This document shows, in pieces, positions 1 to 25,691 of a stretch of 42,919 nt of DNA. Origin of the DNA: a virus; IMG/VR virus record IMGVR_UViG_3300031216_000021, positions 1-42,919 of that record. One strand, written 5' to 3'. A model generated the notes under the pieces. It worked only from the letters and a program-made list of their open reading frames with translations. It searched no databases and was not told where the DNA came from. The position numbers and the translations under genes are program-made. Positions within the stretch are counted from its first letter, which is position 1. Each line of letters starts with the position of its first letter.

Positions 1-50
1 ATGGCCCGGCTTCGGACTTCAACGCCAGCACCGTTGGCGAGGTCGTTTAA
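1..50 (+). CDS. C-terminal end of an upstream gene, probably major capsid protein A (partial)
   Basis: An open frame entering from the left edge ends at a TAA at 48-50 and encodes only about 15 residues ending in STVGEVV. The fragment is too short to identify by sequence. The call rests on synteny: a hairpin, a small Lys/Ala-tailed protein and a head-tail connector follow directly, the usual order after the major capsid gene in HK97-like phages. The second late module of this window has the same order after its recognisable capsid gene. Confidence 0.4.
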   Translation, partial: GPASDFNASTVGEVV

Positions 51-67
51 AGCTGCACCACCAACCC

Positions 68-91
68 GGGGCCGGCCACGCTGCCGGCCCC
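68..91 (+). terminator. GC-rich hairpin after capsid gene A
   Basis: GGGGCCGGC (68-76) and GCCGGCCCC (83-91) form a perfect 9-bp stem around a 6-nt loop, followed by only three T residues. It lies between the end of the probable capsid gene and the next ribosome binding site (GGAG, 97-100). The short T tract suggests partial termination or protection of the 3' end of the abundant capsid mRNA rather than full termination. Confidence 0.6.
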
Positions 92-106
92 TTTCTGGAG
101 AGCATC

Positions 107-328
107 ATGCCAAAGCAGAAAGAGAAGGCGATCAAGTTCGTTCGGGGCTACAAGGTCCAGAACGCTGAAGGCACCCAGTATCAGGTCGATCAAGTGGTGA
201 GCCTTCCCGAAGATTCGGCGAATCATTTCATCAACCGCGATGCGGCGGTCGAAGTGGAAGCCGACCAAGCCAGCAAGTCCACCAAGAAAACGGCGAGCAA
301 GAAGGCCGCGAGCAAGAAGGCCGATTGA
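107..328 (+). CDS. Small capsid-proximal protein with Lys/Ala-rich tail
   Basis: This 73-residue protein has a conserved-looking core (residues 8-45, with KFVRGYKVQNAEGTQYQVDQ) and a basic C-terminal run of Lys/Ala/Ser repeats (about residues 55-73). Small proteins of this kind often sit between capsid and connector genes in HK97-like head modules, but no function is firmly known. GGAG at 97-100 supports the ATG at 107. The stop overlaps the next start (ATTGATGATC), suggesting translational coupling. The basic tail could bind packaged DNA; that is inference. Confidence 0.6.
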   Translation: MPKQKEKAIKFVRGYKVQNAEGTQYQVDQVVSLPEDSANHFINRDAAVEVEADQASKSTKKTASKKAASKKAD

Positions 329-1146
329 TGATCAACGACGTCGTGACGGTGCCGCCCAGCGCTGAGCCTGTTGATGTTAGCTGGATCAAACAGCACACCC
401 GATTGGCCGCTGCCGTCACCGCGCACGACGACATTATTCGCGACCAGTACATGATGGCAGGCCGCGAAACCGTAGAGAACGACACCGGGCGGCTGTTTGT
501 ACAGCAGACCCGTGTGCTTTACCTTGATCGGTTTCCTGCAGCGATCAGCATCCCGCGTTCACCTGTTCGCGCGCTGGTCTCGCTGAAATATCTGGACCAG
601 TCCAATGTCGAGCGAACCTTCGATCTGGACAATCTGGTTATTGACCAGTCCGGCGAGTGGTTCCGACTTGCCCTGGCTGACGATGCGCTCTGGCCTGTAA
701 CCGATGACGCCCCGGGCGCTGTTCGTGTGGAGTACCGCGCAGGCTATGCCGCACCATTCACTGTTGATGATGCGACCGACACAATCACCGCGCCAAGCCA
801 CGACCATTCAGAAGGCGATTGTCTTCGCCCGATCACCTTTGGTGGAACGCTACCGGCTGGCCTAACGGCTCGTAATTACTTTGTTATAAACGCGGCAACC
901 GACACGCTGCAGCTGGCCGAGACGCCGGGCGGATCTGCGGTTGATATCACTGACACTGGCGCTGGTGAATTCTTTCTAGTGGCCCCGGCTGGATACTCTA
1001 TGTATTCGCGCATGGTTCTGGCAATGGCCTTGGCCGCTGCCACCTGGTTCGAAAACCGCGAAGCCGTGAACGTTGGCAACATTACCAGCCGCATGCCTAT
1101 GAGCTACGACGACCTGATTGCCGGACTGTCCCGCGTCGGTTTCTAA
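325..1146 (+). CDS. Head-tail connector protein (HK97 gp6-like) with an inserted domain
   Basis: This 273-residue protein resembles phage gp6/YqbG-like connectors that form a ring below the portal. The helical N-terminus (about 20-60, including LAAAVTAHDDIIRDQYM), the segment IPRSPVRALVSLKYLD (76-91), VRVEYRAGY (133-141) and a C-terminal AAATWFENREA helix are typical. The family is usually near 190-200 residues. The excess is a compact insert at about 146-219 with GTLPAGLTARNYFVIN and a TPGGSAVDITDTGAG motif, patterns also seen as repeat units in phage fibre or decoration proteins. Its stop overlaps the next ATG by one base. Confidence 0.75.
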   Translation: MMINDVVTVPPSAEPVDVSWIKQHTRLAAAVTAHDDIIRDQYMMAGRETVENDTGRLFVQQTRVLYLDRFPAAISIPRSPVRALVSLKYLDQSNVERTFDLDNLVIDQSGEWFRLALADDALWPVTDDAPGAVRVEYRAGYAAPFTVDDATDTITAPSHDHSEGDCLRPITFGGTLPAGLTARNYFVINAATDTLQLAETPGGSAVDITDTGAGEFFLVAPAGYSMYSRMVLAMALAAATWFENREAVNVGNITSRMPMSYDDLIAGLSRVGF

Positions 1147-1703
1147 TGCAGGTCTGCGTGCTGGCGTCCGGCCCTTCGATGTGCCAGTCCGATGCCGCGC
1201 GGGTCAGTGATTGGCGCAACGGCACCAACCGCCTGGCGATCGCGGTAAACAATACGTTTCTTCTGATGCCGATTGTTGATGCGATATTCGCAACCGACCG
1301 GCGGTGGTGGGGCCGGTATTACCCGCAAGCCAAAGCGACCGGCGCGCAGCTCTGGTGCCAGACGCCCAAACTATCGGACCAACTAAATATCAACGCAACT
1401 GAGTGGACATCAGACTCGGGCAACAGCGGCGAACGGGCGCTCAGGTTGGCTGCTGAGGGCTTTCAGGCTACCCGCATTATCTTGATTGGTTTCGATATGG
1501 AAGACAGCGCGCAGAAGCACTGGCACGGCCCGCACCCGAAAGGCTGGCCCAACCCAGAGCCGTCGCACTTCGTCCTGTGGCGCAACTGGATCGGCCGGCT
1601 GGTCGCTACGCACCCAAACATTGACTGGGTGAACGCCTCAAGACAAACCGCGCTGGAGTGCATCCCGCGCATTGATTTGGAGACTGCCCTGTGCCTGTCT
1701 TGA
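1146..1703 (+). CDS. Norphogenetic-type phage protein (DUF115/6-HMP-kinase-like)
   Basis: The 185-residue product starts VCVLASGPSMCQSDAA and contains AIAVNNTFLLMPIVDAIFATDRRWW, then a Rossmann-like ATRIILIGFDME and a His-rich KHWHGPHPKGWPNP segment. This pattern is known from phage proteins called norphogenetic protein and from DUF115-like enzymes related to sugar-transfer or pterophosphokinase-like folds; the reaction is unknown. It sits inside a head-tail connector operon, between connector and head-closure genes, so it is an accessory gene. It overlaps the next gene by 13 nt. Whether it modifies virion or host surface is inference. Confidence 0.6.
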   Translation: MQVCVLASGPSMCQSDAARVSDWRNGTNRLAIAVNNTFLLMPIVDAIFATDRRWWGRYYPQAKATGAQLWCQTPKLSDQLNINATEWTSDSGNSGERALRLAAEGFQATRIILIGFDMEDSAQKHWHGPHPKGWPNPEPSHFVLWRNWIGRLVATHPNIDWVNASRQTALECIPRIDLETALCLS

Positions 1704-2293
1704 TTACCGGATGCGCCCGATCAGGCACGAGCTTGACCGCCAGCATATTCAAGGCCCACGGGCTCGACCTTGGCACCGTGAACGGACTGTTTGAAAACAC
1801 CTCCATTCGAGAACACCTTCTAAAACCGATGATCGAGCGGGCAGGCGGTGATCGGCTTGGGCAATCTCGCTTGCCGAGTATTGGCGTAAGCCCGCCCGTT
1901 TCGTCCCTGCGTGCGCGCGTTGAAAAGCATTTCACTGGGCCATGGGCCTACAAAGACGCCAAGCTGTCATTGGTCTGGCGCACCTGGGCTGATGCCTTCC
2001 CAGAAGCGAAATGGGTCATCGTTCGCCGATCAGTGGAATCAATCGCCAAGTCGTGCATGGATACGTCATTCATGCGGGCCTACCAGACGGAATCAGAGTG
2101 GCACGACTGGGCCATTGCTTGCATCTGGCGTCTGCAGGATTTGCGATGCTCGATGAAGTGCCCTGAAATTGACATGGATCAAGTCATGCGCGGCAACTTT
2201 GAAAGCATGCGCAAAGCGTTCGAGTATTGCGAAATCGAGTTTGAACAGCCGCTGGCTGAATCACTACTGGACCCGACGAAATGGCGACACTGA
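1691..2293 (+). CDS. Sulfotransferase-family P-loop protein
   Basis: The 200-residue product opens with VLITGCARSGTSLTASIFKAHG, which matches the 5'-phosphosulfate loop of PAPS-dependent sulfotransferases (GxxRSGTS). A second motif, WVIVRRSVESIAKS (about 114-127), matches the 3'-phosphate-binding R/S segment. The start is GTG at 1691, overlapping the previous gene. In this position it is an accessory gene in the connector operon and may work with the preceding enzyme-like protein. Substrate is unknown; a general nucleotide-binding role without sulfation cannot be excluded. Confidence 0.65.
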   Translation: MPVLITGCARSGTSLTASIFKAHGLDLGTVNGLFENTSIREHLLKPMIERAGGDRLGQSRLPSIGVSPPVSSLRARVEKHFTGPWAYKDAKLSLVWRTWADAFPEAKWVIVRRSVESIAKSCMDTSFMRAYQTESEWHDWAIACIWRLQDLRCSMKCPEIDMDQVMRGNFESMRKAFEYCEIEFEQPLAESLLDPTKWRH

Positions 2294-2625
2294 GCTCATT
2301 AGGCGCGATGCGTCACAGCATCAACGTGCAGGAATACACCGAGACTACGAACCCCCAAACCGGCGTGCGAACACGCAGTTGGTCCGACAAATACACCGAC
2401 GTGCCGGCCGCTTATCGCGCTTTAACGTCACGCGAGCAACAGGCAGCATCGGCCAGAAACAGCGAGGTTTCGGTTGAGTTCGAGATGCACGCCGGACTAG
2501 CCATAACAGCAGCCAATCGTATTGTTTTCGAGGGCGACGTGTACGAGATCGAGCCGCCAACCTTGGACGAAACACGCCAGCGCCGAATGAAGATCAAAGC
2601 CGCCCGAGGCATGACCGATGGCTGA
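2281..2625 (+). CDS. Phage head closure / head-tail adaptor protein
   Basis: This 114-residue protein has the familiar opening LGAMRHSINVQEYTE, then TRSWSDKYTDVPAAYRALTSREQQAA and a C-terminal RIVFEGDVYEIEPP segment. These match the SPP1 gp16/HK97 gp7-like head closure family, small beta-barrel proteins that seal the connector after packaging. It overlaps the end of the sulfotransferase gene by 13 nt. ATG at 2308 is an alternative start, but family members usually carry several residues before the MRHR-like motif, so 2281 is preferred. Confidence 0.8.
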   Translation: MATLSSLGAMRHSINVQEYTETTNPQTGVRTRSWSDKYTDVPAAYRALTSREQQAASARNSEVSVEFEMHAGLAITAANRIVFEGDVYEIEPPTLDETRQRRMKIKAARGMTDG

Positions 2626-3070
2626 TCGATCAGAAGTCAAAGGCCTCGCGGAACTGCTGAACACACTGAGCAAGCTGCCGGATCATGTGGCGCCCCAGGG
2701 CGGTGGGCCGATCAATAAAGCGCTATTCAAAGCCGCTGGCATCTGGCGCGATCAGGCGCAAGCCAATGCGGCGGGTTTGGGGCCAGGCAATCACGCGCGC
2801 AAAGGCTTTTCGATCGTTGGACGGCTGAAGGACAACATCCTTCGCCGGCGTGATCCTGAGCCAGAACGTGACGGCCACTACGCCCGAGTGAGTGTCGGAT
2901 ATGCCGCGCGGTTTTATTGGGGCGGCTTCGTCGAGAACGGCACCGAGAAACAGGCCGCGCAGCCCTTTCTTCGACCGACACTGGATCAGTCCGGCGATGA
3001 ACCGATTAACGTTTTCGCGGCTGCTCTGTCGCGCGATATTGCAAGAATCACCAAGAGGCTGGCCAAGTGA
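2618..3070 (+). CDS. HK97 gp10-like tail-completion protein
   Basis: The 150-residue product has the hallmarks of the HK97 gp10/neck family: an N-terminal GLAELLNTLSKLP helix, KALFKAAGIWRDQAQANA, a basic middle and a FYWGGFVENGTEKQAAQPFLRP motif. Such proteins act at the head-tail joining region during tail completion. It overlaps both neighbours (start within the head closure gene, stop TGA overlapping the GTG start of the next gene). Confidence 0.8.
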   Translation: MADRSEVKGLAELLNTLSKLPDHVAPQGGGPINKALFKAAGIWRDQAQANAAGLGPGNHARKGFSIVGRLKDNILRRRDPEPERDGHYARVSVGYAARFYWGGFVENGTEKQAAQPFLRPTLDQSGDEPINVFAAALSRDIARITKRLAK

Positions 3071-3420
3071 TACCGCCAATCTATGAATGGCTGAACGTCG
3101 CCGCCGTCAATGCGATTGCAGGGACGCGGCTGTACCCGTTCGGCGATGCCGGGGACAGCCCGGCCTATCCCTACGCCACTTGGTTTCTGCCTTCCAGCGG
3201 TGCCGAGAATTATATTTCAGAAGTTCCAACGATTGACCGTGATCGAGTACAGATCGACTGCTGGGCGCAAACGCCACAGGATGCTCTGGACCTGGCCACG
3301 GCTGTTCGCAACGTGATGGACGCTCGGGGCCATCAGCACGTTCGCATCGTTCACCCGATCGATCCCGACACCAAAAGCTATCGTGTGCAACTCGACTACA
3401 CGGTCTGGCAGCCTCGCTAG
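3067..3420 (+). CDS. DUF3168-type tail terminator/completion protein
   Basis: This 117-residue protein reads IYEWLNVAAVNAIAGTRLYP, YPYATWFLPS, DRVQIDCWAQTPQDALDLA and a C-terminal SYRVQLDYTVW, the standard order of DUF3168 tail-completion proteins (lambda gpU-like role, capping the tail tube). It starts at GTG 3067 in a GTGA overlap with the previous gene. A strong hairpin with a T run follows, so it is the last gene before an internal terminator. Confidence 0.8.
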   Translation: MIPPIYEWLNVAAVNAIAGTRLYPFGDAGDSPAYPYATWFLPSSGAENYISEVPTIDRDRVQIDCWAQTPQDALDLATAVRNVMDARGHQHVRIVHPIDPDTKSYRVQLDYTVWQPR

Positions 3421-3445
3421 AACCCGTAGTTCAACTCATTATTTC

Positions 3446-3468
3446 CCGCCGTTCTGGCGGTTTTTTTT
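3446..3468 (+). terminator. Rho-independent terminator before tail tube gene A
   Basis: CCGCC (3446-3450) and GGCGG (3456-3460) form a stem with a GTTCT loop, followed by eight T residues (3461-3468). The stem is short but the T run is long. It separates head-completion genes from the tail tube gene, as often seen in siphophages to raise tail tube expression relative to upstream genes. An AAAGGAG Shine-Dalgarno sequence follows. Confidence 0.7.
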
Positions 3469-3482
3469 AAAGGAGAACAATC

Positions 3483-3947
3483 ATGTCGGAGCTTAAAACC
3501 CAGGGAACTCACCTGTTCCTGCTTGACGATGCCGACACCGGCAACGAAGTGCGAAAACTCGGCCAGATTACTGGCGGCACGGGTGTTGGTGGTGAAGCTG
3601 GAGAGATTGACGTCACAGACCTTGATTCTGAGGCAATGGAATACTTGACGGCACTCAAGGACAACGGCAGCCTATCGCTGAACGTCAACTGGGACCCGCA
3701 GAACCAAAGCCATCAGACGATCGATGCTCTGGTGGGCGGTGACAACAAGCGCATTCTGATCTGCTGTTCAGAGTCGGCGACTGATCCGAGCTTTACATCG
3801 GCATTTGTGCTTCCTACTGATCGCACGGTCCTGGACTTCACTGCTGGCATTCGCGCGTTTCAGAAGGACTTCACCACGAACGAAGTCTGGCGGGCCAGCA
3901 TCACAATGCGTATCTCAGGCGACATCACCATCACCCCAGCGAGCTGA
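3483..3947 (+). CDS. Major tail tube protein A
   Basis: The 154-residue product contains LKTQGTHLFLLDDAD, GEAGEIDVTDLDSEAMEYLTALKDNGSLSLNVNWD and a C-terminal WRASITMRISGDI. The VTDLDS...L..L.D.G..S..V.W pattern is typical of phage tail tube proteins of the TP901-1/lambda V superfamily. It follows a terminator and a strong ribosome binding site (AAAGGAGAAC, 3469-3478) and precedes the tail chaperone, the normal siphophage order. Confidence 0.75.
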   Translation: MSELKTQGTHLFLLDDADTGNEVRKLGQITGGTGVGGEAGEIDVTDLDSEAMEYLTALKDNGSLSLNVNWDPQNQSHQTIDALVGGDNKRILICCSESATDPSFTSAFVLPTDRTVLDFTAGIRAFQKDFTTNEVWRASITMRISGDITITPAS

Positions 3948-3952
3948 TACCC

Positions 3953-4384
3953 ATGAAACTTAATCAGTACATCAACCAAGCACGGGCAGACATTCTGCCC
4001 GTTTCTATCAAGGGCAACGAGATCGACGACGTGTACTTTCGCCGACTCTCAGCGGGCGAAGGATTGCAGCTCAAAGAAGCGTTTTCAGGATTGCTCAATA
4101 CAGCCGGATCAGCAGCGGCAAGTATTGCCAAGGGTGACGCCGAAGAGGCGGGCGCTGAAGCTGCGGCCAAACTATCCCCCGCGCAGCTGAAGGCACTGTT
4201 CGAGTTTCAAGCGTTGTTCGCATTTCTGCACTTGGGAGTCAAAGACGGATCACGCGCCTACACCGACCGCAAGGCCTTCGACGATGAGGTGCCCGACGAG
4301 TTCGTTCAGGCGTTCTATCAGGCTGGCAGCGAGCACAAGCAGAAAACCGAGCCCAGCGCCAAGGAGGCCGAGGGAAACTCCTAG
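3953..4384 (+). CDS. Tail assembly chaperone G (A module)
   Basis: This 143-residue protein sits between tail tube and tape measure, the universal place of lambda gpG-type chaperones, which coat the tape measure during tail assembly. It has a beta-rich N-terminus (ILPVSIKGNEIDDVYFRRLSAGEG) and an acidic, Ala/Glu-rich C-terminus. Its last codons are GAG GGA AAC TCC TAG, containing a perfectly phased slippery heptamer, so a fraction of ribosomes should make a longer GT product. Confidence 0.75.
   Translation: MKLNQYINQARADILPVSIKGNEIDDVYFRRLSAGEGLQLKEAFSGLLNTAGSAAASIAKGDAEEAGAEAAAKLSPAQLKALFEFQALFAFLHLGVKDGSRAYTDRKAFDDEVPDEFVQAFYQAGSEHKQKTEPSAKEAEGNS
4372..4378 (+). promoter_or_regulatory. Programmed -1 frameshift site GGGAAAC (A module)
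   Basis: The heptamer G GGA AAC is in the X XXY YYZ phase relative to the G frame, two codons before its TAG stop. Slipping back one base gives CTC CTA GAC at 4378 and an uninterrupted frame through 4728. The layout (G, slippery site, T in the -1 frame, then tape measure) is the conserved tail chaperone arrangement known from lambda. I did not identify a confident downstream pseudoknot. Confidence 0.85.
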
Positions 4385-4407
4385 ACTCCGAAGCGCTTCG
4401 TCTTTGT

Positions 4408-4728
4408 ATGCGAGTGGCTGACCGTCATGGTCGGTCACTCTCTGAAGTGCTCTCGGAGTATCCCGACTGGGAAATGTCCTATTGGGCCAGCTACTACGCG
4501 CGCGAGCCTGACTCTGGCCGTCGTGTTGAATACATGCTTGCCCGTTTTCTGTCGACCTATCTATCAGCGCACAGCAAAAAAGGCCACCAGCCACCCAAGC
4601 CGGCTGATCTGGTTCTGCCTGACTGGTATCGCGAAAACCATCAACCCACTGCATCCCGTGACGACGTGAACATGCTTATTGAGCTGTTTTCAGAATCAGG
4701 CATTCCGGTCCGCGTGAACAAGAGGTAA
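4408..4728 (+). CDS. Tail assembly chaperone T, expressed as a G-T frameshift fusion (A module)
   Basis: The frame is open from 4378, where the -1 shift enters, to 4728 (117 codons); the first ATG is at 4408. Residues include SEVLSEYPDWEMSYWASYYARE, which fits the T domain (a Pro-Asp-Trp...W..Y pattern) that recruits tail tube protein. No good Shine-Dalgarno sequence was seen before 4408, so synthesis as a GT fusion is more likely than independent translation. The tape measure starts 5 nt after the stop. Confidence 0.75.
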   Translation: MRVADRHGRSLSEVLSEYPDWEMSYWASYYAREPDSGRRVEYMLARFLSTYLSAHSKKGHQPPKPADLVLPDWYRENHQPTASRDDVNMLIELFSESGIPVRVNKR

Positions 4729-4732
4729 CACC

Positions 4733-7700
4733 GTGTCCACATCCCTTGGCCGTCTAGTTCTGGATATGGCAGCAAACGCTGCCGGATTCGAACGAGACAT
4801 GCAGCAGATCAGCCGGTCTGCCAAGAAAGAGCTGAACAAGGTCAATCGTGAATTGTTCTTTGCTCAGCGCGACCTGGACGCCGCACGGGGCAAGGTCACA
4901 AAGCTGGCCACGGCATTTGGCGCGCTGAGCGGCGCAGGCCTGGCCATTGCGGGACGTGAGCTGCGCCGTTTCACGCAAGAGGCTGACGGGCTCGACAAGG
5001 TGTCCCGCACGGTCTCTCTGACCGTTGGGGAACTTCAAGAGCTTCGGTTTGCTGCAGAGCAGGCCGCGGGCGTTACCAGCCAAACGCTCGACATGGCCAT
5101 GCAGAGATTTGCACGGCGCGTAGGCGAAGCCGCGAACGACACCGGTGAACTGAACACGATCGTCAAAGAGCTTGGCGTCGAGCTGCGCAATGCAGATGGC
5201 AGCCTGAAGTCTCAAACCGAACTGCTGGGCATCTTCGCCGACGAAATCTCAAAGGCGGGAAGCGAGCAGGAAGCGCTGCGCATTGCCTTCAAGCTGTTCG
5301 ACTCCGAAGGCGCGCGTATGGTCACCATGCTGCGTCAGGGATCAGGTGAAATCGAGCGGCTGCGTGAGCAATTCCGGCAGACCGGGGCGACCATTTCAGG
5401 CGATACGGTAGAGGCCACCGTTCGCTTCAATGATGCAATGGGCGTCCTAAGCCAGAACCTAGCCGGAATGCGCAATGCGTTCATGGCTGATCTGATCGAG
5501 CCGCTGTCTGACTACGCCGATTTCCTGGCCAACACGGAGCAGGGTCAGCGCGTATTCAAGCAACTGCTCGAAGATGTAGGCCGAGCCGCTCAGGTCACTG
5601 GAACAATTATTGCAGTCGGATTCACCGGCGCGCTGGTTAAAGCGATCGTTCAAATGGCGCTGGCCGAGGTCCGGGTCGCTCGCTTGACCGCCGCCAAATT
5701 AACACTGAACGGCGCGTCCAGATCGGCGGCCATTGGCGTGACTCTATTTGGTCGGGCGGTGGCTATTGCAACCGGCCCTGTAGGCGTCACCATTGCCCTT
5801 CTGTCAACGCTCGGCATCACATACCTGTCGCTCCAAGACAACATCCGGGCAGCGGGCGAAGAGTTTGACGAGTTCACCAGCCGAATCGACCGAGCGCGAG
5901 AATCAACGGTTGCATTCCGATCTGCTCAGCTTCAATCAGACCTGATCGAGATTGGTGCCCGCGTTTCTGATATCAACGCAGAACTTGAACGCCTGCAGCG
6001 AATTCAGATTGGGATGGAACAGGCCCAGTTTGGAGATCCACGCCTACCGGAAGAAATGGCCGATCGGGTGCGTGAGCTAACCTCAGAGCAAAACGACCTG
6101 CGCAAGTCCGCTGGTGTATTGAATGATCAGCTTGAGCAGCTGAACACGGCCACAGAAGGAGCTTCCGAAGCCACTGAAACCAGCACAGCGACGGTTGAAG
6201 ACCTGGGTCGCGCTGTTGATTCGATTGCGGCCAGCCTGCAGAACCAGATTGATCGACTGCGTGAAGAAAAGATCGAAACCATCGGCGGCACCCGGGCGCT
6301 GTTGGACTACACCATCGCCAAGGAAGCCGCCAACGGTGCCACCGTCGAACAGATCCGCGAGCTGCAGCTCTTGCGCGATGAGCTTCTGGACGAGCAAGAC
6401 GCCCTGGAAGCGGCCACCGGCGCGATGGAAGAACGCCAGCGCCAGGCTGAAGAAATGGCAAATCAGATGCGCGAGGTCGCTGCTGCGTTCATCGAGGCCG
6501 CCACTGGCGTTCGCATCTTCAATGATGAGAACCAGCGCGGGGCTGGGGCGGGGCAGTCTAGTGGTGGCGCCTTCAGCGCTATCGGCGCGGGCTTAGCGCA
6601 GTCGATTTTCAATGGCCAGTCGATCGGTGATGCGCTGGGCTCGGCATTCACCGGATTTGGCTCGCAAGAACTCGGCAAGGTCGCTGATAAATTCTTCGAG
6701 GACGCGGCCACCAAAGGCATCGGCACGGCCTTCGAAAACAGCAAAACACAAAAAGGGGTGGCGGGAGGCTTCGCGATGGCGATCGGCCAAGCCTTTCAGG
6801 GGCAGTATGGGGCGGCGATCGGCGGCGCCATTGGTACGGCGGTTGCCGGACCTATCGGCGGCATGATCGGCCAGGTCTTGGGCAGCCTCATCGATGGGCT
6901 GATCGGCGAAAAGGCGGTCGAGATTCAATTCAGGGGCAGCCAGGGCAGCACCGGAAGCGACCGCACTGATCGCAGCATTGACACGGCACTGGGGCAGGTC
7001 GACATCCGATTCCGCCGCATCGAGGGGCAGGCCCGCTCCCAGTTCGTCAACGCCCTGGAAGAGATGGACGCCAGCATCGCCGCATCGCTTCGCGGCACCG
7101 GGCTGTTGCCGCAGGCCAGAGAAGCGGCCGATCGCTTCGGCGGCGACACCGGTGATTTCGATAACGACGTCGAGGCGGCACTGCGCCAGCGACTGAATGC
7201 GATCGTGAGAACCTTCGATTCCTTTGTCGCGGATTTCGTGAATTCGTCCGAGTCGCTTGAGGGGCAGCTGGAGAACCTGGCCAGCGTCATGGCCGTCAAT
7301 CGCAGCCTGCTGGCCGGTGCCACGCTGGGCCTGCCCGCTGATTTCGTCAGCACCGTTACCCAGCCGACCCTGCCTGGCCCCGTCAACCCTGGCACACCAG
7401 GCGGCGGGGATGCGCGCGGCGGCGGGGGCGGGGGCGACTTCATCAAACAAACCGTAGCCACTATCAGCGACAGCGTCTCGGGCTTCAATGCCGCGATGCA
7501 AACCGTGGGCGAGGGCGTTGACAGCGCCACCGTGCAAACCGGCCAGCTCGCGCCCGAGCTTGCCGCCACCGTCAGTGCCCTGCTGCAAGTGCGCATCGGC
7601 AATGAGCCGCTGATCGACACCTTCGCGCGCACTTCGCAGATTCTCGGCACGCTCGACACCGCGTCGGCGCTGCTGGGCGCGCGGTTTGGTCAGACCAGAA

Positions 7701-9505
7701 TGGAGGCCATCGCCTTTGGCGCTGACCTGGCGACGATGTTCGGTGACGATGCCGGCAAGGTCGCGGCCCAGTTCAATCGCGTATTCGAAGCGTTCTATAC
7801 CGAAGCCGATCGCGCACAGGCGCAGTCGGAGATGGCATCGCAAGAAGCGACCCGGCTGCTGACCAGCCTGCTGGCTGAGGTTGACGGCGTCGAGTTCGAC
7901 GCCGGGCAGCTGACGCAGGCCGGCTTCAGAGAATTGTTCGAGTCGCTGACCTCACTCGGCACGCTGACCGCTGCCCAGACCGCTGTGCTACTGAATGCCG
8001 GCGTCGCGGTGGCGGACTACATCGACGCACAGGGCACGCTGAACGACACCCAGCAAGACGCGGCCGACATCGCACAGCAGCAGGCTGATGCGCAAGCCCT
8101 GCTGAATCGCCTGCAGCAAGAAACGCTCGATCTGATCGCGCCTAGCTGGGCGCAGTACGACCAACTCAACCGCGCTGTCGCTGAAAACATCAACCAGGCG
8201 CGCGAGCTGGGCGGATCAGAGCAGACCCTTGCCGCCGCGCGACGGCTTGCGCACCTGCAGCAGCAGGCCTTTGTCGGCGAGCTTCGAGCCAGCATCGCCA
8301 GCCTGAATGACCAGCTGTTCGGCACCGGCGAGGACCCCTTCAGCCAGATGGCCAGCAGCGTGCAGTCGTCGGCCAGCAACATCGGCGACAGCATCATCAA
8401 CGGCCTGCAGGGCGTGCAGGACTGGCTGGACAGCCAGCTGCTGAGCAACCTGAGCAGCTTGACGCCTGAAGAGCGGTTGGGTACGGCACAAAGCCAGTTC
8501 GACAGCGCGATCGCCGCGATTATGGCCGGCGACTTCAGTGCCCTAGGCAACCTGCCCGGGCTGGCGAATCAACTGCTCGGCGAAGGCGCTACTTTTTTCG
8601 ACACCAGCTCCGATCAGTTCGGTGAACTTGAGTCGCAGGTGCGCGACGCGATGGAGTCTATCGCCGGGTTGGCACCACCGGGAAGTGGCCAGCCACCGAC
8701 GTTTGCGCAATCTGCCAACATCGAAAGCGCGACTCAAAGCACAGCGCTTTCTGCCCTGGAGCAAGCCCAGCTCGGCGGGCAGCTGGTGCAGCAAATTGCC
8801 TTGCTCTCTCGCCTCACCGGCAAAAGCCCGTCAGCGATCGGTGAAGAGTTCGGTATCCCCATCGGGCAGCTTATTCAAGCCGTGACCGGCGAGCTGCCAA
8901 GCGCCACGGGTGATGCGCTTTCGACGTACTTCAATGACCTGGTCAGCGGCGTTGACGATGAGCTGAGCGCCTTGCTGGATATTTCAGCGGCCCAGACAGC
9001 AGCCCAGGCCACACGCGAAAGCATTGATGAATCGCTGAGGCGCATTGCTGGCCGGCCGGAATCTCAAGCAGCTTTCTACGCCTATCAGACCACCATGGGG
9101 CCACAGCCGCCAGGTACTGATTCAGGCTCGACCATGGGGCCACAGCCGCCAGGTACTGATTCAGGCTCGACCATGGGGCCACAGCCGCCAGGTACTGATT
9201 CAGGCTCGACCATGGGGCCACAGCCGCCAGGTACTGATTCAGGCTCGACCATCCTGCCGAGGCCTGACCCCTTGATCTCGCTGGAGCAAACGCTGAGTGC
9301 TGATAATCTGGCGCTGCGCGATGAAATTCGCAGCTTGCGTGCCGAGCTTGTGCGGTTGGGTGATCTAACCGAAAACGGAAATAATGACCGCCGCCAACTG
9401 GTGACTGAGACTGCCGGGGTTGGTGACGATGTGCGCGGCTCGGGCGACAGAATCGTTCGAGCGATCAATGCCCGTCAAACCACGCGGCGGGGGCCGGGGC
9501 AGTGA
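4733..9505 (+). CDS. Tape measure protein A
   Basis: This 1590-residue protein is the largest here and follows the tail chaperones. It has a helical coiled-coil N-terminus (NAAGFERDMQQISRSAKKEL), hydrophobic stretches near 285-310 and 340-365, more coiled coil (410-470, 500-590), a Gly/Ala-rich middle (615-730, with AIGGAIGTAVAGPIGGMIGQ), a Gly-rich linker near 885-905, and four exact 13-residue repeats TMGPQPPGTDSGS near 1454-1505. Tape measures set tail length and take part in DNA delivery. Start is GTG 4733 after AGAGGT. Residues about 587-857 are nearly identical to part of tape measure B at the right edge. Confidence 0.9.
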   Translation: MSTSLGRLVLDMAANAAGFERDMQQISRSAKKELNKVNRELFFAQRDLDAARGKVTKLATAFGALSGAGLAIAGRELRRFTQEADGLDKVSRTVSLTVGELQELRFAAEQAAGVTSQTLDMAMQRFARRVGEAANDTGELNTIVKELGVELRNADGSLKSQTELLGIFADEISKAGSEQEALRIAFKLFDSEGARMVTMLRQGSGEIERLREQFRQTGATISGDTVEATVRFNDAMGVLSQNLAGMRNAFMADLIEPLSDYADFLANTEQGQRVFKQLLEDVGRAAQVTGTIIAVGFTGALVKAIVQMALAEVRVARLTAAKLTLNGASRSAAIGVTLFGRAVAIATGPVGVTIALLSTLGITYLSLQDNIRAAGEEFDEFTSRIDRARESTVAFRSAQLQSDLIEIGARVSDINAELERLQRIQIGMEQAQFGDPRLPEEMADRVRELTSEQNDLRKSAGVLNDQLEQLNTATEGASEATETSTATVEDLGRAVDSIAASLQNQIDRLREEKIETIGGTRALLDYTIAKEAANGATVEQIRELQLLRDELLDEQDALEAATGAMEERQRQAEEMANQMREVAAAFIEAATGVRIFNDENQRGAGAGQSSGGAFSAIGAGLAQSIFNGQSIGDALGSAFTGFGSQELGKVADKFFEDAATKGIGTAFENSKTQKGVAGGFAMAIGQAFQGQYGAAIGGAIGTAVAGPIGGMIGQVLGSLIDGLIGEKAVEIQFRGSQGSTGSDRTDRSIDTALGQVDIRFRRIEGQARSQFVNALEEMDASIAASLRGTGLLPQAREAADRFGGDTGDFDNDVEAALRQRLNAIVRTFDSFVADFVNSSESLEGQLENLASVMAVNRSLLAGATLGLPADFVSTVTQPTLPGPVNPGTPGGGDARGGGGGGDFIKQTVATISDSVSGFNAAMQTVGEGVDSATVQTGQLAPELAATVSALLQVRIGNEPLIDTFARTSQILGTLDTASALLGARFGQTRMEAIAFGADLATMFGDDAGKVAAQFNRVFEAFYTEADRAQAQSEMASQEATRLLTSLLAEVDGVEFDAGQLTQAGFRELFESLTSLGTLTAAQTAVLLNAGVAVADYIDAQGTLNDTQQDAADIAQQQADAQALLNRLQQETLDLIAPSWAQYDQLNRAVAENINQARELGGSEQTLAAARRLAHLQQQAFVGELRASIASLNDQLFGTGEDPFSQMASSVQSSASNIGDSIINGLQGVQDWLDSQLLSNLSSLTPEERLGTAQSQFDSAIAAIMAGDFSALGNLPGLANQLLGEGATFFDTSSDQFGELESQVRDAMESIAGLAPPGSGQPPTFAQSANIESATQSTALSALEQAQLGGQLVQQIALLSRLTGKSPSAIGEEFGIPIGQLIQAVTGELPSATGDALSTYFNDLVSGVDDELSALLDISAAQTAAQATRESIDESLRRIAGRPESQAAFYAYQTTMGPQPPGTDSGSTMGPQPPGTDSGSTMGPQPPGTDSGSTMGPQPPGTDSGSTILPRPDPLISLEQTLSADNLALRDEIRSLRAELVRLGDLTENGNNDRRQLVTETAGVGDDVRGSGDRIVRAINARQTTRRGPGQ
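6491..7302 (+). repeat. Long direct repeat shared by both tape measure genes (copy A)
   Basis: This segment aligns without gaps to 42108-42919 at a constant offset of 35617 bases and in the same reading frame in both genes. By eye about 30 differences are spread over the 812 bp, roughly 96% identity. The match starts abruptly at ATCGAGGCCGCCAC; the flanking tape-measure sequence upstream is not similar. The second copy is cut by the window end, so the repeat may be longer. Confidence 0.95.
9092..9247 (+). repeat. Four tandem 39-bp repeats in tape measure A
   Basis: Four perfect 39-bp units start at 9092, 9131, 9170 and 9209, each beginning ACCATGGGGCC and ending GGCTCG. Each encodes 13 residues, TMGPQPPGTDSGS, so copy number can change without breaking the frame. 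The exact identity of all units points to recent expansion. The peptide is Pro/Gly-rich and likely a flexible linker near the tape measure C-terminus. Confidence 0.97.
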
Positions 9506-12500
9506 GCGAATCAATCGTGATTGTTGCGCGTATTCAGTACGCGGTTGATGGCGAGCTCCGAGCGCTTGGCGTGTCCGATGCCAGCTATTTCGACATCGGC
9601 AACACGGCCGCGCTCGAGCGGGGCGTGTATTGGCCCTTGATCGACCCCGGTTCAGAAATTACCTGGTCTGAACAAGCCCGCCACGCCTTCCATAGCCAGC
9701 CAGCGCCCCTGTCTATTGGCGAACTTGTCCTTGTCAACTCCAGCGGTTTTTTCGACGATTGGGTCGACTACCAGGTCAAGGGATTTCAAACCGAGATTCG
9801 CCGCGGATCACCAAACACCCCCTGGGCCGATCTGGAGCCCGTGCTCGTGGCGCGCAACGAAGCCCTGCGATTCCCCAACCGCAGCCAGATGGTCATCACG
9901 CTCGGCAATGTCCTGCAGGCGCTCGCCAGCCCATGGAATACCGTTGTTTTCGAGGAAGGGCAAGCCAACCCGCGGTTGGATAACACCAGCGTGCCCGCTG
10001 TGCTGGGCAAGGCGCTGCAAGTGAATGGCTTGCCGGTCGACCCCGGACAACTCCGATATGTCGCGGCGTGGAATCTAGGATTTGTGTGGCAGGTAGCCGC
10101 AGGCGGCAACCCGATCACGGCGTGGAATTTCAGTGACCGTGGATGGATTCTTGACGCAAACCCCACGCTGACGATCACCGGCACGATCAGCGGGCCGCCT
10201 GTTCCGATCGAGAATGTGATTGACTTGGCTGCCGACGCGGGCGACTTCACGGCATTGACTGACCTTACTGATTACACCGTGGTAGACAATTCACCAGACG
10301 CCACGGCGGTGCTGACCGCATCGCCTGCCGAAGGCCTGCAGCTCAATATCGACGCGTCGGCCTATGAATTTGATTTCGAAAGCTTTGCCGGGGCTAGCGA
10401 GCGATGGGCTGGCGGGAATGTCGCTGTCTCAACAGTGGGCACCGGCGGGCAGACCCTGCCCATTGATGACCAGTGGGAGTTTGTTGATGATCCCGCCGAT
10501 GAAACCAGGTATCTGCGTATCGCATGGGGAACAGGACAAGCACCTGGAACATTGAGCAATGGCGTTTCATTCAGTGGGTTCACGTTCACCGATCTTCCAG
10601 ACGACGCGGTAATCGACTATATCGAGATTGATCACACCGCAGAACTGCAAACCGGATTTGGCGTGCTTGACGCCGGCCTGGAAGAGATCGTGATTCGCAA
10701 AGCCAGCGGCGCGGTCAGCGCCAACGGCATTGATGGATCAAGTGTCAACGAGACCGCGTTTACGCCGGTTCCCACCACAACCACCACGCAAACGATCACC
10801 ACCGACAGCACCATGGGGTTGCGGCTCACTGGTGCAGACTGCAAGCAAACCGGCTTCCAGATTCGCCTGCGCTGGCGTTCTGAAAAGCCGATACCGTCAC
10901 CGATTGGGCCGGTTCTTAACGCCGTGCTCCACGTCTACGGCATCAAGTTCCGCGTGTATTTGAAGGACTCCGGCAACGTCATCACGCTGCACACCGATCT
11001 GGGCATGGTCCCTGGCAACAGCTATGAATTGCAATTCGATCACGACGAAGACCCGGCAGAAATCATCGCGCGCTGGGCCGGCGTTGAAACCGCCACATCG
11101 CCCGTAGAGGGCCAAGGCGACACGTTCTCGACCTTTCAGGGCCGGCTCACCGATGACGGCGAAAGCGCCTTTCGATTTATGGCCGATGGCCCCGTACTGG
11201 CGTTGGGATTTGCCTGCGACCCGGCCACCGACGCCAGCCAGCTAATTCACAGTATCCGCGTGATTGAGGTCGGGCAGGTCGTCGACCGCTACGCCGGTCT
11301 CGTGCCTTACATCGTCGATGAAGCCGGCCTTGATCCTGTGCTGAATGTCGATCAGGATTCAGTCGACGAACACGACACGATCACTGGCGAAATGCCGACC
11401 GGCTGGCTCGTCTCCAACAGCGAATCAGCCGACGATCTGTTATTTCTGCTCGCCTCCGATCGCGGCGGTGCGGTTTATCACGGGCTGGACGCAAAAGTTC
11501 ACAGCGGCCTGATCCGAAACCCCGCCGACGTGACCGACACCCTGCCCGAAGTCGGGCCAGAGCGCATCGACATCGACAGCGCAGAGATCTGGGACGACCT
11601 GCCCCCCGGCATCACCGATCGAGTGCAGGCCGCGCGCAACTGGAGCCCCATACCCGAAGACCGCGCCGCTGGCATCGTCGCCACGTTTACTGAGCAAGAC
11701 CGCGCCGACGTTTCAGCCGATTATCGAATTACGAAAAAAGCCCGTTTTGGGGATTTGCAGGGGTTCATAGAACCAGAACCCGTTCTGACAATTTCAGCAA
11801 TTAGCCCGGTTACGGGCGACGAAGCCGGCGGCGAATCGGTCACGATCACCGGGACAGGGTTTGAAGCCGGGGCCACCGTTACCATCGGCGGCGCATCAGC
11901 CACCAGCGTCGTGATCGACAGCGCAACCCAGATCACTTGTGACACCCCAGCCGGAACAGCGGGTGACGTGGACGTGGTGGTCACAGTGGGCGCGGAATCG
12001 GCTACGCTGACGGATGGGTTTGAGTTTGCCGGGCCGTGGACACCAGCCGACGAAACGACCGAAGTATGGATCAAGTCCGACGACTTAGCCACGATCACAG
12101 ACACCGCAGGAAGCGTCACCCAGATCAACGACAAATCGGGCAATTCTCGGCACTACGAACAAACGACAACCGCGCTCAGGCCAACAACTGGCGTTGATAC
12201 AATCGGCGGCAAAAACGTGCTGCGGTTTGATGCTGACTGGCTTAGAAACACCGCAGCGCCTGCGGTCTGGGAATTTCTGAATAACGCCGATGGCTTTTCG
12301 GTTTTCGCCGTAATCAAGCCTGGGCTAATAGCCAACCCAGATGATCTTTATGGAATATTTGGCAACAACGGCGGCAGCACGTTTGGCCGGGGGATGTACG
12401 TGCGTTACGACGATCGTTCTGCATTGTCTTTTTCAGACACGCTTGTTCACATATCCGCTGATGCTAACAACGTGCGCCCGGTCGCTCATTACAAGCAGGA

Positions 12501-12849
12501 TTCAGCTCCAGCGCAGACAGCTATCGTTCTTTCTATCGTGTCTGACCCGACGCTGGTAACAGCCGCCGACCGCGCTCCGCAGTGGATCAACGGCATCGCT
12601 CAGACGCCGATAGACACGTCGCTTGTGAACTCGTCGATAGTCCCCGTGAACGCGCCAACCATACGGCTTGAGCTGGGCGCGGTCGGCAATGGAACGTGGC
12701 CGCTAAAAGGGCAGATTGCAGAGTTTGTAATAATGAAAGGCGCTGCAAGTGCAACGCTTCGCCAGAAGTTTGAAGGGTATCTTGCGCACGATTGGGGGCT
12801 AGAGGGCGACCTGGACGTTACACATCCCCATAAGGCAACGCCGCCATGA
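9502..12849 (+). CDS. Tail-tip protein with IPT/TIG and LamG-like domains
   Basis: This 1115-residue protein starts at GTG 9502 in a GTGA overlap with the tape measure stop. The N-terminal 240 residues look like a tail-tip or baseplate structural domain. Residues about 761-845 form an IPT/TIG fold (ISPVTGDEAGGESVTITGTG, ATVTIGGASATSV). The last 270 residues resemble a concanavalin A/LamG-like sandwich (WIKSDDLATITDTAGSVTQI, FEGYLAHDWGL), common in phage adhesins. It probably reaches the host surface; the receptor is unknown. GTG start and position support a distal-tail or J-like role. Confidence 0.7.
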   Translation: MSESIVIVARIQYAVDGELRALGVSDASYFDIGNTAALERGVYWPLIDPGSEITWSEQARHAFHSQPAPLSIGELVLVNSSGFFDDWVDYQVKGFQTEIRRGSPNTPWADLEPVLVARNEALRFPNRSQMVITLGNVLQALASPWNTVVFEEGQANPRLDNTSVPAVLGKALQVNGLPVDPGQLRYVAAWNLGFVWQVAAGGNPITAWNFSDRGWILDANPTLTITGTISGPPVPIENVIDLAADAGDFTALTDLTDYTVVDNSPDATAVLTASPAEGLQLNIDASAYEFDFESFAGASERWAGGNVAVSTVGTGGQTLPIDDQWEFVDDPADETRYLRIAWGTGQAPGTLSNGVSFSGFTFTDLPDDAVIDYIEIDHTAELQTGFGVLDAGLEEIVIRKASGAVSANGIDGSSVNETAFTPVPTTTTTQTITTDSTMGLRLTGADCKQTGFQIRLRWRSEKPIPSPIGPVLNAVLHVYGIKFRVYLKDSGNVITLHTDLGMVPGNSYELQFDHDEDPAEIIARWAGVETATSPVEGQGDTFSTFQGRLTDDGESAFRFMADGPVLALGFACDPATDASQLIHSIRVIEVGQVVDRYAGLVPYIVDEAGLDPVLNVDQDSVDEHDTITGEMPTGWLVSNSESADDLLFLLASDRGGAVYHGLDAKVHSGLIRNPADVTDTLPEVGPERIDIDSAEIWDDLPPGITDRVQAARNWSPIPEDRAAGIVATFTEQDRADVSADYRITKKARFGDLQGFIEPEPVLTISAISPVTGDEAGGESVTITGTGFEAGATVTIGGASATSVVIDSATQITCDTPAGTAGDVDVVVTVGAESATLTDGFEFAGPWTPADETTEVWIKSDDLATITDTAGSVTQINDKSGNSRHYEQTTTALRPTTGVDTIGGKNVLRFDADWLRNTAAPAVWEFLNNADGFSVFAVIKPGLIANPDDLYGIFGNNGGSTFGRGMYVRYDDRSALSFSDTLVHISADANNVRPVAHYKQDSAPAQTAIVLSIVSDPTLVTAADRAPQWINGIAQTPIDTSLVNSSIVPVNAPTIRLELGAVGNGTWPLKGQIAEFVIMKGAASATLRQKFEGYLAHDWGLEGDLDVTHPHKATPP

Positions 12850-13796
12850 GTATTTCAATCGTTGCATCAATTGCGCCGGTATTCGCTAACGACAATTCAA
12901 CTCCGGGCACTGTCTCTATCTCGTCAGACATCCCCGCGCAAACGCAGCCTGGCGACTTAATCGTGATGGTTGTTATGACTCGCGCCGAGTTAAACAACCC
13001 GGAAGGATTCACAACGGAAGCCGAAGAAAGTCTTCCGGCTAATTCATTAGCGGTAACCCGGGTCGCAACAAAAATTGCAGCATCAGGTGACGCCGGGAAG
13101 ACCATCAACCTGACCAATTCCGGCGATCGACTCGGCCTCGGATTTATTGTATTTAGAAGCGCATCAGGTTCACTGGGGCTGGAAAATATAGCAACGTCTC
13201 AGACTGATTCTGTAACGGCCCGCATTGCCGTTGGTGACGAGTCGCTTGGCTTTTCTGCGGCAGGTACTTTACGTGCAGAATTTTCTCCAACTGCTGAGAC
13301 ATTGAATGTCTCTACACCTTGGGATTTAAAAAGCAACCCCTCAATCGTTGACAATAGGCTAGGGTTTGCTACTGTCAGTCCATCAGCAAATCAGATACCT
13401 GCTGTCACTTGGACCTCTGGCTCACAAGGATTGCAGGAATACGCGACTATTTCGTGCGCCGTTGTTCAATTCGTGCCCGTCCCAGAAACAGAAGAAGAAA
13501 TCTGGGCCGCGAATTTCGCCGAAGCCCAAGGGGCACCACCCCAGACCACCGCACTAATCCGAGCCGCAGACGCCCAAACCCTGGCCGATCACAACGTCGG
13601 GCTATTCCTGAATGGCCCGCGCTGGTATCGCCTGCCCGTGGTCGTGCCAGTAGGTCAGCTGGACGATTTCACCATTTTCACCGTGCGCACATTCCGAGCC
13701 GATCTGCCCGGCCTGCGAACTGGTAAAAAACTAATGATCCTTGGACGCGAAGGCACAGCTACGCCCGGCGTCGTCACACTCACATGCTGGGGGTAA
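12846..13796 (+). CDS. Probable tail-tip or fibre protein
   Basis: The 316-residue product overlaps the previous gene by an ATGA junction. The N-terminal 210 residues are beta-rich (IPAQTQPGDLIVMVVMTRAE) and resemble small carbohydrate-binding-like or virion decoration domains. From about residue 213 (ETEEEIWAANFAEAQGAPPQ) the sequence looks different and ends in a hydrophobic VVTLTCWG. I do not recognise a family. Its place after a LamG-bearing tail protein suggests a distal tail part. Confidence 0.5.
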   Translation: MSISIVASIAPVFANDNSTPGTVSISSDIPAQTQPGDLIVMVVMTRAELNNPEGFTTEAEESLPANSLAVTRVATKIAASGDAGKTINLTNSGDRLGLGFIVFRSASGSLGLENIATSQTDSVTARIAVGDESLGFSAAGTLRAEFSPTAETLNVSTPWDLKSNPSIVDNRLGFATVSPSANQIPAVTWTSGSQGLQEYATISCAVVQFVPVPETEEEIWAANFAEAQGAPPQTTALIRAADAQTLADHNVGLFLNGPRWYRLPVVVPVGQLDDFTIFTVRTFRADLPGLRTGKKLMILGREGTATPGVVTLTCWG

Positions 13797-13799
13797 AAA

Positions 13800-14588
13800 A
13801 TGGCCGTCTTCGCATACTCCAACCGAGCCCTGGGCCTCGGCGCCTTCACAGCCGTCACCGGCACCTGGGCCACCAACCCACCCATCGCCAACCTAGGCAC
13901 GCTGCAGGTGCCAACCCCGCACGCAGAAGTCACGCCGGACGCCGGCGAGATCGAGTTCAGTTTTGAGGCGCTGGACCAGGCAGAAGCCGCCGAGACGGTC
14001 AGCGTGCAGTTGCTGGGCCTGATGGCGCACAACCTGCCCGACAGCGCGGTGGTGACGTTCTTGAACGGGGCAACACAGCTAGCGCAGATCACCTGGTCGG
14101 CGCTGGCTGAGCGCAATCGAGCGGCGAATACATTCGCCGTGCTGAGCGCGGCCGAGGATCTGGACACGCTCACGGTCAAAATCACCAGCGCCGGATCCGA
14201 ACCGATCCGCATCGGCGGCCTGTGGATGAGCCGGATGATTCAATTCCAGGCCGACAAGGGCGCGGACTGGGGCGCGGACGACTACAGCCGCATCGTTCGC
14301 GTCAGCGCCACCCCGTGGCCCAACCAGCGCACCCAGGCCGACCGCGTGACCTGCACGGCCAGCTTCATCCGCGACCCGCAGGCCTGGGGCACTGAGGGCG
14401 GCGTGAACTTCAAGGGCATCTTCGAGCGCGTCAAAACCACCGAGCCCGTCGTCTACATCCGACGCACCAGCACCCAGGCCGATATCGACCGCTGGAGCAT
14501 CTACGGCCAGCTGGCAGCACCAGGGCGGATTGCGCACCGGCGCGGCCCGCTGAACCGGGTGGAGTTTGATGTGATGGAGATACGGTAG
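13800..14588 (+). CDS. Tail protein of unknown role, last gene of module A
   Basis: This 262-residue protein starts AVFAYSNRALGLGAFTAV and has a regular beta-rich pattern. The middle (LWMSRMIQFQADKGADWGAD) and the end (WSIYGQLAAPGRIAHRRGPL, followed by VEFDVMEIR) are typical of short minor tail proteins seen at the end of siphophage tail operons, but I cannot name the family. It is followed by a hairpin and the divergent repressor, so it closes the late operon of module A. Confidence 0.55.
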   Translation: MAVFAYSNRALGLGAFTAVTGTWATNPPIANLGTLQVPTPHAEVTPDAGEIEFSFEALDQAEAAETVSVQLLGLMAHNLPDSAVVTFLNGATQLAQITWSALAERNRAANTFAVLSAAEDLDTLTVKITSAGSEPIRIGGLWMSRMIQFQADKGADWGADDYSRIVRVSATPWPNQRTQADRVTCTASFIRDPQAWGTEGGVNFKGIFERVKTTEPVVYIRRTSTQADIDRWSIYGQLAAPGRIAHRRGPLNRVEFDVMEIR

Positions 14589-15614: not shown

Positions 15615-15857
15615 ATGCAGACCAACCCCAACATCATGCCGACTTTGACCCCGGTGCAGATGGACCTGGCCATGCCAGGCTGCCCCTCGGCCGTTGACGA
15701 AGCCTGGTCGGTGCACAAGAAAGCGCTGGCCCCAATGAACCTGAACCAGGCATTGGAGCACGCGCTCTATGGCCGTCTGATTCGTGCCCATGCCGGGGCG
15801 ATCGAGGCGATGCGGCGATCAGCCGTGCGCCGGCGTATTCGGCGGGCCAAGCGATGA
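15615..15857 (+). CDS. Small early protein, basic C-terminus
   Basis: This 80-residue protein follows a strong ribosome binding site (AAGGAGG, 15602-15608). It contains MNLNQALEHALYGRLIRAHAG and a C-terminal Arg-rich helix (RRSAVRRRIRRAKR). I do not recognise a family; the helical, basic character would suit nucleic-acid binding. The stop overlaps the next start. Confidence 0.55.
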   Translation: MQTNPNIMPTLTPVQMDLAMPGCPSAVDEAWSVHKKALAPMNLNQALEHALYGRLIRAHAGAIEAMRRSAVRRRIRRAKR

Positions 15858-15970
15858 ATATCAGCGCGGCGGCTTCGAATTCAATCACGCTGGTGTTCAT
15901 CATTGTGGCCATTGCCGTGGCACCGGTGGTGCTCTACGCGATTTGCAGCTGGTTCAAGGATCGCCAATGA
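15854..15970 (+). CDS. Single-span membrane microprotein
   Basis: The 38-residue product starts MNISAAASNSITL and then has one strongly hydrophobic segment (VFIIVAIAVAPVVLYAICSW) before a short charged tail, KDRQ. ATGA overlaps on both sides (15854 and 15967) support it as a real gene in the early operon. It is probably an inner-membrane peptide; function unknown (host-membrane or superinfection effects are possible). Confidence 0.5.
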   Translation: MNISAAASNSITLVFIIVAIAVAPVVLYAICSWFKDRQ

Positions 15971-16377
15971 GTGCCCAGCAATTCCAGATTTTGAACACCG
16001 GCGACCCGGTGGATCCACGCCGCCGAAACCGGCAGTGGGGCGAGGTGGGCGCGAGCTTCATGCTGTGCGGCACGCTGCTGATTCCCCTTATCAATATCGC
16101 GGGCGATATCTGGTTCCAGATGTTTACCCGCGAAGGCGACGAGGTTGGCGGACTGCCGATCGCCCCGATGAGCTTCGAGCCTGAATCCCCTTATCGCGTG
16201 GTGCCACGGGCGCTGCGCATTCACCCGAACGGCCGACCTGAAGCCGTTCTGATCGAAACCCAATACACCGGCCAATTCAACACATCAACGAGACCGGTCT
16301 GGGCCACTTCAAATAACGAGGACGACGATGCAAACGACGAATCAAAACACATTCAACCGCTATCTGACGCAGGCTGA
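15967..16377 (+). CDS. Early protein of unknown function with a hydrophobic segment
   Basis: The ATG at 15967 overlaps the stop of the microprotein gene and starts a 136-residue frame (MSAQQFQILNTGDPVDPRRR). A hydrophobic stretch near residues 30-50 (ASFMLCGTLLIPLINIAGDI) may span or touch the membrane. The C-terminal 17 codons (16328-16377) overlap the next gene in another frame, an unusually long overlap here. The frame is open further upstream, but 15967 fits the overlap pattern. Confidence 0.5.
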   Translation: MSAQQFQILNTGDPVDPRRRNRQWGEVGASFMLCGTLLIPLINIAGDIWFQMFTREGDEVGGLPIAPMSFEPESPYRVVPRALRIHPNGRPEAVLIETQYTGQFNTSTRPVWATSNNEDDDANDESKHIQPLSDAG

Positions 16378-16942
16378 AGAGCGAGCGCTTTTCCGCTGCG
16401 TCAAAGACCACGCCGGGCCACTGGCCGCGCGTGACTACCAATGGATGCGCCTGGCCCGCAACACCGGCCTGCGTGTCGGCTCACTGGCCGGGCTGACCGT
16501 GATGGATGCGCGCCTGGCACTGGCCAGCAAGCACATGGCCATCAGGTCAGACATTGCCAAGCGCAAACAGGCCCACACCGTGCACCTGAACAAACACGCC
16601 CGAGCCGCTCTGGTCGCGCTGCTTAAAATTCGGCGCGAGCTCGGCCACCCCGAAACCGACTCAGCACCGCTGATCATGAGCCGCAATAAAAACGGGCTTT
16701 CGATTCGCAGCTTTCAAGCGCGCATGCGCTACTGGGCCAAAAAGGCCGATCTGCCCGTGCAGGCCACCCCGCACTGGTTCCGCCACACCCTGGCCATGCG
16801 CCTGATGAAAAACAGCACAGCCCAGGATCCGCGCGGCGTAGTGCAGGGCGCACTCGGCCACCGCGACATCAATTCAACCGCCGTCTACACCCGGCCCAGC
16901 CGCGAAGACGTGGCGCTGGCGCTGGATGAGGTCGGGTCATGA
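16328..16942 (+). CDS. Short tyrosine recombinase
   Basis: The 204-residue product contains the full tyrosine-recombinase signature: Arg in NTGLRVGSLAGL (about 48), HWFRHTLAMRL (about 149-152), GALGHRDINSTAVY with His near 177 and Tyr near 188. It lacks the usual separate N-terminal core-binding and arm-binding domains of integrases (330-400 residues), so it is catalytic domain plus a short leader. It sits in the early operon, far from the full-length integrase. It may resolve dimers or act as a recombination accessory; its site is not seen. Confidence 0.75.
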   Translation: MQTTNQNTFNRYLTQAEERALFRCVKDHAGPLAARDYQWMRLARNTGLRVGSLAGLTVMDARLALASKHMAIRSDIAKRKQAHTVHLNKHARAALVALLKIRRELGHPETDSAPLIMSRNKNGLSIRSFQARMRYWAKKADLPVQATPHWFRHTLAMRLMKNSTAQDPRGVVQGALGHRDINSTAVYTRPSREDVALALDEVGS

Positions 16943-17280
16943 GCGACTCAAAAAGGGAAACGATGACTCGCGACGAATTCCTCACCATTGCGACAGGAAA
17001 CGGCGCCGTACCAATCGAGAAAGCATTGTTCGAATGCCCTATGTGCAAAACCAAGCAATCAGCGACTGACTTGATTGATGCCGGGGCGGGCGATTCGCTT
17101 GAATCTGTTCAAGGATATCTGGCGTTCAGCTGTATCGGTCGATGGGATTCAGCCAAGGGCTGCGACTGGACGCTCGGCGGACTTTTCCAATTGCATGAGG
17201 TTGAAGTTGAATTTGAGCCTGGTCAGATGCGGCCCTGCTTCAGGCCGGTCGAGCCGGCAGCGGTGGAGGTGGAATCATGA
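16939..17280 (+). CDS. VVA0879-like zinc-binding early protein
   Basis: This 113-residue protein contains CPMCKTKQSATDLIDAGAGD, then VQGYLAFSCIGRWDSAKGCD. The CxxC and C-x(n)-C arrangement suggests one zinc site and the pattern matches the VVA0879-type family common in phage early regions, whose role is unknown. ATGA overlaps join it to the genes before and after. ATG 16963 is a possible later start. Confidence 0.65.
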   Translation: MSDSKRETMTRDEFLTIATGNGAVPIEKALFECPMCKTKQSATDLIDAGAGDSLESVQGYLAFSCIGRWDSAKGCDWTLGGLFQLHEVEVEFEPGQMRPCFRPVEPAAVEVES

Positions 17281-19312: not shown

Positions 19313-19326
19313 ACCTTAACTTTTCT

Positions 19327-19350
19327 GCACCCGGCCGGGCCGCTGGGTGC
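19327..19350 (+). terminator. Hairpin between the small early genes and the primase
   Basis: GCACCC (19327-19332) pairs with GGGTGC (19345-19350) around a 12-nt GC-rich loop. No T run follows, so it may be an attenuator or mRNA-processing structure rather than a true terminator. It sits about 20 nt before the primase ATG. Confidence 0.35.
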
Positions 19351-19372
19351 TGCTGAACTGACGGCGAGAGTC

Positions 19373-22161: not shown

Positions 22162-22179
22162 AAATAATCTGAGTAATTG

Positions 22180-22786: not shown

Positions 22787-22799
22787 AAGGAGAGACAAA

Positions 22800-25684: not shown

Positions 25685-25691
25685 CCGCGTA

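Follow-up and report, generated by a model that had tools for sequence, protein, structure and literature searches.

The window analyzed here, a virus contig of 42,919 bases taken in full, contains two tape measure genes (A and B) that carry near-identical copies of one 0.8 kb block. Judged by protein families, it also holds two head-tail modules, located at 1-4728 (preceding gene A) and at 34-40 kb (preceding gene B), together with a single packaging and capsid set. The genes were compared with relatives of two lineages, termed X for the left part of the record and Y for the right. Searching with the gene A N-terminus, we recovered the IMG/VR phages G036 (IMGVR_UViG_3300038954_000088) and G037 (3300037796_000043). 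Relatives of the window's terminase gave a Y-family set of 16 phage records for gene-by-gene comparison, the closest being G003 (IMGVR_UViG_3300022719_000227), an uncultivated phage that is probably a complete circle, as its two ends share an identical 127-bp sequence. The features of the window are as follows:

1-47, + strand: end of an upstream gene that, judging from its position, probably encodes the X capsid
1-4728, + strand: X-lineage head-tail module, with, after position 47, a small ORF, a head-tail adaptor, two glycan/sulfo-transferase-like genes, neck, tail terminator, tail tube and two chaperone-like ORFs (PHROG hits; colinear homologues of g02-g10 in G036/G037, up to 76% identity)
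4733-6490, + strand: tape measure gene A, N-terminal part of 586 codons, X type (51% identity to G036 over residues 1-506)
6491-7302, + strand: shared block, copy A, X residues 587-856 (95.57% identity to 42108-42919; 38% to G003 and 29% to G036)
7303-9505, + strand: C-terminal part of tape measure gene A, where the Y gene is also expected to continue (homologues: tape-measure C-termini of G003, the relative G022, Microcystis phage vB_MaeS-yong1 and G036)
9502-14588, + strand: tail-tip genes g12-g14, present in both lineages (in G036, G003 and G022, homologues follow the tape measure gene in unchanged order)
15784-33897, + strand: Y-lineage early genes, small and large tyrosine recombinases, primase, terminase, portal, head morphogenesis and protease/capsid (colinear with the circular G003)
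33990-40452, + strand: Y-lineage head-tail module and lysis genes (homologues of g44-g48 in most Y-family relatives, of g44-g54 in G003)
40449-42107, + strand: tape measure gene B, N-terminal part of 553 codons, Y type with Pfam TMP_3 (PF20155, 3.8e-58; 51% identity to G003 over residues 1-294)
42108-42919, + strand: shared block, copy B, ended by the end of the record (last 82 bases equal to copy A)

Using BLASTN and direct comparison, we found 776 of 812 bp identical between the two block copies with no gaps, and both copies lie in frame 0 of their tape measure genes. Identity exceeds 90% at both levels (95.6% in nucleotides and 94% in protein over 270 residues), which confirms the preliminary description of the repeat as gap-free, in frame and about 96% identical. 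The only other long repeat in the window is a 39-bp tandem array. The 36 differences between the copies affect 29 codons, 18 of which change the amino acid, and occupy codon positions 1, 2 and 3 in 13, 5 and 18 cases, with a dS of 0.080, a dN of 0.035 and a ratio of 0.44. They are also clustered, with 15 neighbors lying within 3 bp (4.4 expected), and 26 fall in the first half of the block against 10 in the second.

Similarity along the two proteins changes in three steps. In windows of 40 residues, genes A and B share 1-7 residues up to X residue 473, 16-20 (40-50%) at X residues 474-593, and 35-40 (87-100%) from X residue 594 onward. Over the first 473 residues, identity is about 10%, and the two N-termini belong to different PHROG families and separate lineages; these parts of the proteins are no more similar than chance and are not merely fast-evolving. 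The pairwise alignment proposed in the preliminary description hence gives a stepped rather than an even identity, and its statement that the upstream parts are unrelated holds up to X residue 473 and has to be refined for residues 474-593. Given these steps, the sharp left edge of the block, placed at 6491 or, after a 27-bp transition with 7 differences, at 6518, sits within older homology. At this edge, the copies have only 14 exact bases in common, and 7 of the following 13 differ. Copy B reaches the last base of the contig, so gene B is truncated to its first 823 codons and the right edge of the block is not visible. An identical end of 82 bases is not in itself proof of a graph break. Equating its length with the word length of a particular assembler was considered and rejected as unprovable, since identical runs of 117 and 90 bases also occur earlier in the block.

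The genes at 1-14588 are colinear with G036. Both G036 and G037 have counterparts of g02-g14 in matching order but lack any of g15-g55, and upstream they encode their own HK97-type terminase, portal, protease and capsid, the head genes being unrelated to those of the Y lineage. Their tube, terminator and neck genes are 67-76% identical to those of the record, whereas in the block they diverge to the 29% listed above. The N-terminus of gene A scores 466 bits against G036 and 50 against G003, with other tested relatives at about 50 bits or below, and gene A as a whole is a full-length open frame with 40% identity to G036 over residues 2-1410. No DNA similarity to the X leader was found in phages or plasmids. 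As a separate observation, the X head-tail operon includes sialyltransferase-like (PHROG 4603, 3.7e-39) and sulfotransferase-like genes at 1146-2293, an odd location for glycan-modifying genes, which are retained in G036 (45% and 24% identity).

Homologues of the X head-tail genes g01-g10 were found in none of the 16 Y-family records, all of which carry head-tail genes of the Y type. The circular gene order of G003 equals that of the window from the block (6491) round to copy B (42919): it follows the record from g18 to g56 and on into the block, the C-terminus and the tail tip, with identities of 76% for the terminase, 74% for the primase, 76% for the integrase and 33-69% for the Y head-tail genes. 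However, G003 has a single tape measure gene of 1257 aa, composed of a Y-type N-terminus, the block and the C-terminus. This gene matches Y residues 1-294, the block, X residues 939-1112 and 1232-1317, and is followed by g12-g14; the X leader is lacking. Microcystis phage vB_MaeS-yong1 (MT855965) likewise shares the Y-family packaging, capsid, primase, recombinase and head-tail genes, with a terminase 60% identical, but differs in having a tape measure gene of 2073 aa that matches mainly the C-terminal part and in lacking the X leader. The terminase, portal, protease/capsid, recombinase and primase genes are shared with this family and lie in one circular order, placing the right part of the record in the group of G003 and vB_MaeS-yong1. 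Collectively, the colinearity with G036/G037 and the circular order of G003 assign the left of the record to the X lineage and the right to the Y lineage, its two halves thus being colinear with two unrelated phages.

Based on this comparative genomic evidence, the record is likely to combine two temperate-type tailed phages. The two would have a swapped part of the tape measure gene in common, and the assembler would have produced all or part of the join; a genome with two tape measure genes is probably not real. Since G003 combines a Y-type N-terminus, the block and the C-terminus in one gene, gene B is probably the front of the only tape measure gene of the Y phage, whose back half would be found at or after 7303, downstream of copy A. 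The two tape measure genes of the preliminary description are therefore best read as having leaders of two lineages, and two such genes in one phage are not supported; in the survey of relatives no genome was seen with two, each relative examined carrying one such module. Directly observed are the block with its left edge, the lineage to which each flank belongs, and an architecture with a single gene in G003; we infer that the presence of both leaders in one record is a product of assembly and not a real molecule.

Under the composite reading, everything in the record beyond about 15.8 kb would represent a Y-lineage phage with a genome of about 35.6 kb and would break off within the single tape measure gene of this phage, while an unrelated X-lineage phage would have contributed its head-tail module and tape-measure N-terminus as the first 6.5 kb. 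The join may have become possible when the X tape measure gene acquired the block, perhaps along with the C-terminus and tail tip, from a Y-lineage phage by intragenic recombination, or the reverse. With X and Y locally identical at the block, assembly would take one path and the other branch, copy B, would stop. Chimeric contigs that combine co-existing viruses sharing some regions have been described in benchmarks on simulated viromes (PMC5610896; PMC10563150). The switch between X and Y lies between 7221 and about 15.8 kb, where the tail tip stands at about the same distance from relatives of either family, and tetranucleotide signatures were not decisive in locating it. Genes A and B are each known from this one apparently composite record, B being truncated, and our searches, in sets that may omit near records, recovered neither a second record of either gene nor a separate record of either parent with the block. 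More generally, two phages can come to stand in one public virus record through a shared block of this kind, so that the record resembles one genome with two tape measure genes.

The record is continuous, without host genes or an obvious break, which would also suit one real molecule, namely a recombinant phage, a concatemer or a tandem prophage with an X-headed genome before a Y genome, and a tandem of recombinant prophages would give the observed gene order. We regard this as unlikely, given that the record has only one packaging and capsid set and that the relatives examined each carry a single such module. We rejected, in particular, two distinct prophages, X and Y, in tandem: X early genes and an att junction should then be present, whereas the tail tip is immediately followed by the Y early genes. 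The preliminary description also raised gene conversion. Acting between two tape measure genes in a single phage genome, it would be consistent with the sharp left edge and the clustered differences. Yet it needs two tape measure genes per genome, an arrangement found in no relative, and in G003, whose order matches 6491-42919, both fragments make up one gene, leaving this option unsupported and highly improbable. The alternative put forward alongside it, module exchange between two phages, is supported by leaders of different lineages joined to a block that is 94% identical in protein.

Even within a composite record, the tape measure mosaic itself, the X leader joined to the block, is probably natural as judged from the sequence at the junction. 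Copy A is not a stray piece of copy B, because the two differ at 36 sites, and these sites, along with the mere 14 exact bases shared at the join of X leader and block, rule out an assembler jump between the copies there. Alternatively, copy A could be the allele of a second Y strain wrongly joined to the X leader, with no natural exchange at all; the record is probably composite anyway, and the two might be linked by a third sequence that was not seen. This is rather improbable, as the exact match at the edge is too short for the usual assembly word and is followed by mismatches, and as the X tape measure gene is open over its full length and homologous to that of G036.

Both copies of the block are closer to the Y relative G003 than to the X relative G036 (38% against 29%), with the block of gene A scoring 162 and 90 bits, respectively, and G003 was the only close block relative among the viral contigs, bacterial genomes and GenBank phages searched. 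The GC3 of both copies (0.76) matches that of the Y N-terminus (0.78), compared with 0.65 in the X leader. These two features suggest that the transfer ran from Y to X, although one relative per side is a thin basis. From the gene neighborhoods, we infer that the N-terminal part moves together with the neck and tube genes, and the C-terminal part together with the tail tip, presumably because these parts interact. A broader and more tentative proposal, which we hold possible but doubtful, is that two unrelated temperate phages of one community share a near-identical host-entry module (block, C-terminus and g12-g14) swapped mid-gene, the tape measure gene acting as a hinge between the head-neck-tube and host-recognition modules.

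The block, gap-free and 94% identical between tape measure genes of two lineages, is a candidate recent mosaic with edges readable on one side. It resembles the recent protein mosaicism surveyed across phages (Nat Commun 2023; PMC10684548) in comprising a highly identical fragment, here over 270 residues, in otherwise different proteins. That large survey was unable to confirm any genuine recent case in a tape measure protein, and for this reason the block matters as a candidate.

Within the block, a Gly/Ala-rich uncharged stretch extends over 46 residues in copy A and over 28 residues before a Glu in copy B, and a long stretch of this kind is also present in G003 and G036. It is not strongly hydrophobic, no 19-residue window in the block reaching a Kyte-Doolittle mean of at least 1.6. 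A role of the block in passage through the host membrane is at most possible. Structure prediction for the block was unusable (mean pLDDT 41.5), and comparison with solved structures gave only a meaningless hit (E=0.2). Further along gene A, at 9092-9252, a perfect 39-bp tandem repeat of 4.1 copies encodes the unit TMGPQPPGTDSGS; it is absent from the tape measure gene of G003.

Several features of the Y part were recorded independently of the exchange. Two tyrosine recombinases, at 16328-16942 and 23679-24842, are both kept in most relatives, the larger (23679-24842) having a different place in the gene order of vB_MaeS-yong1. This phage is recorded for Microcystis aeruginosa, while the other terminase relatives of the group lie in gamma- and betaproteobacterial genomes, and the stated host of MT855965 may deserve a check. 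A perfect 28-bp direct duplication (22731-22786, 2.0 copies) occurs at the end of a small ORF. Finally, the 892-aa frame at 31219-33897, conserved across the Y family, apparently fuses a Mu-I-like protease with the capsid region.
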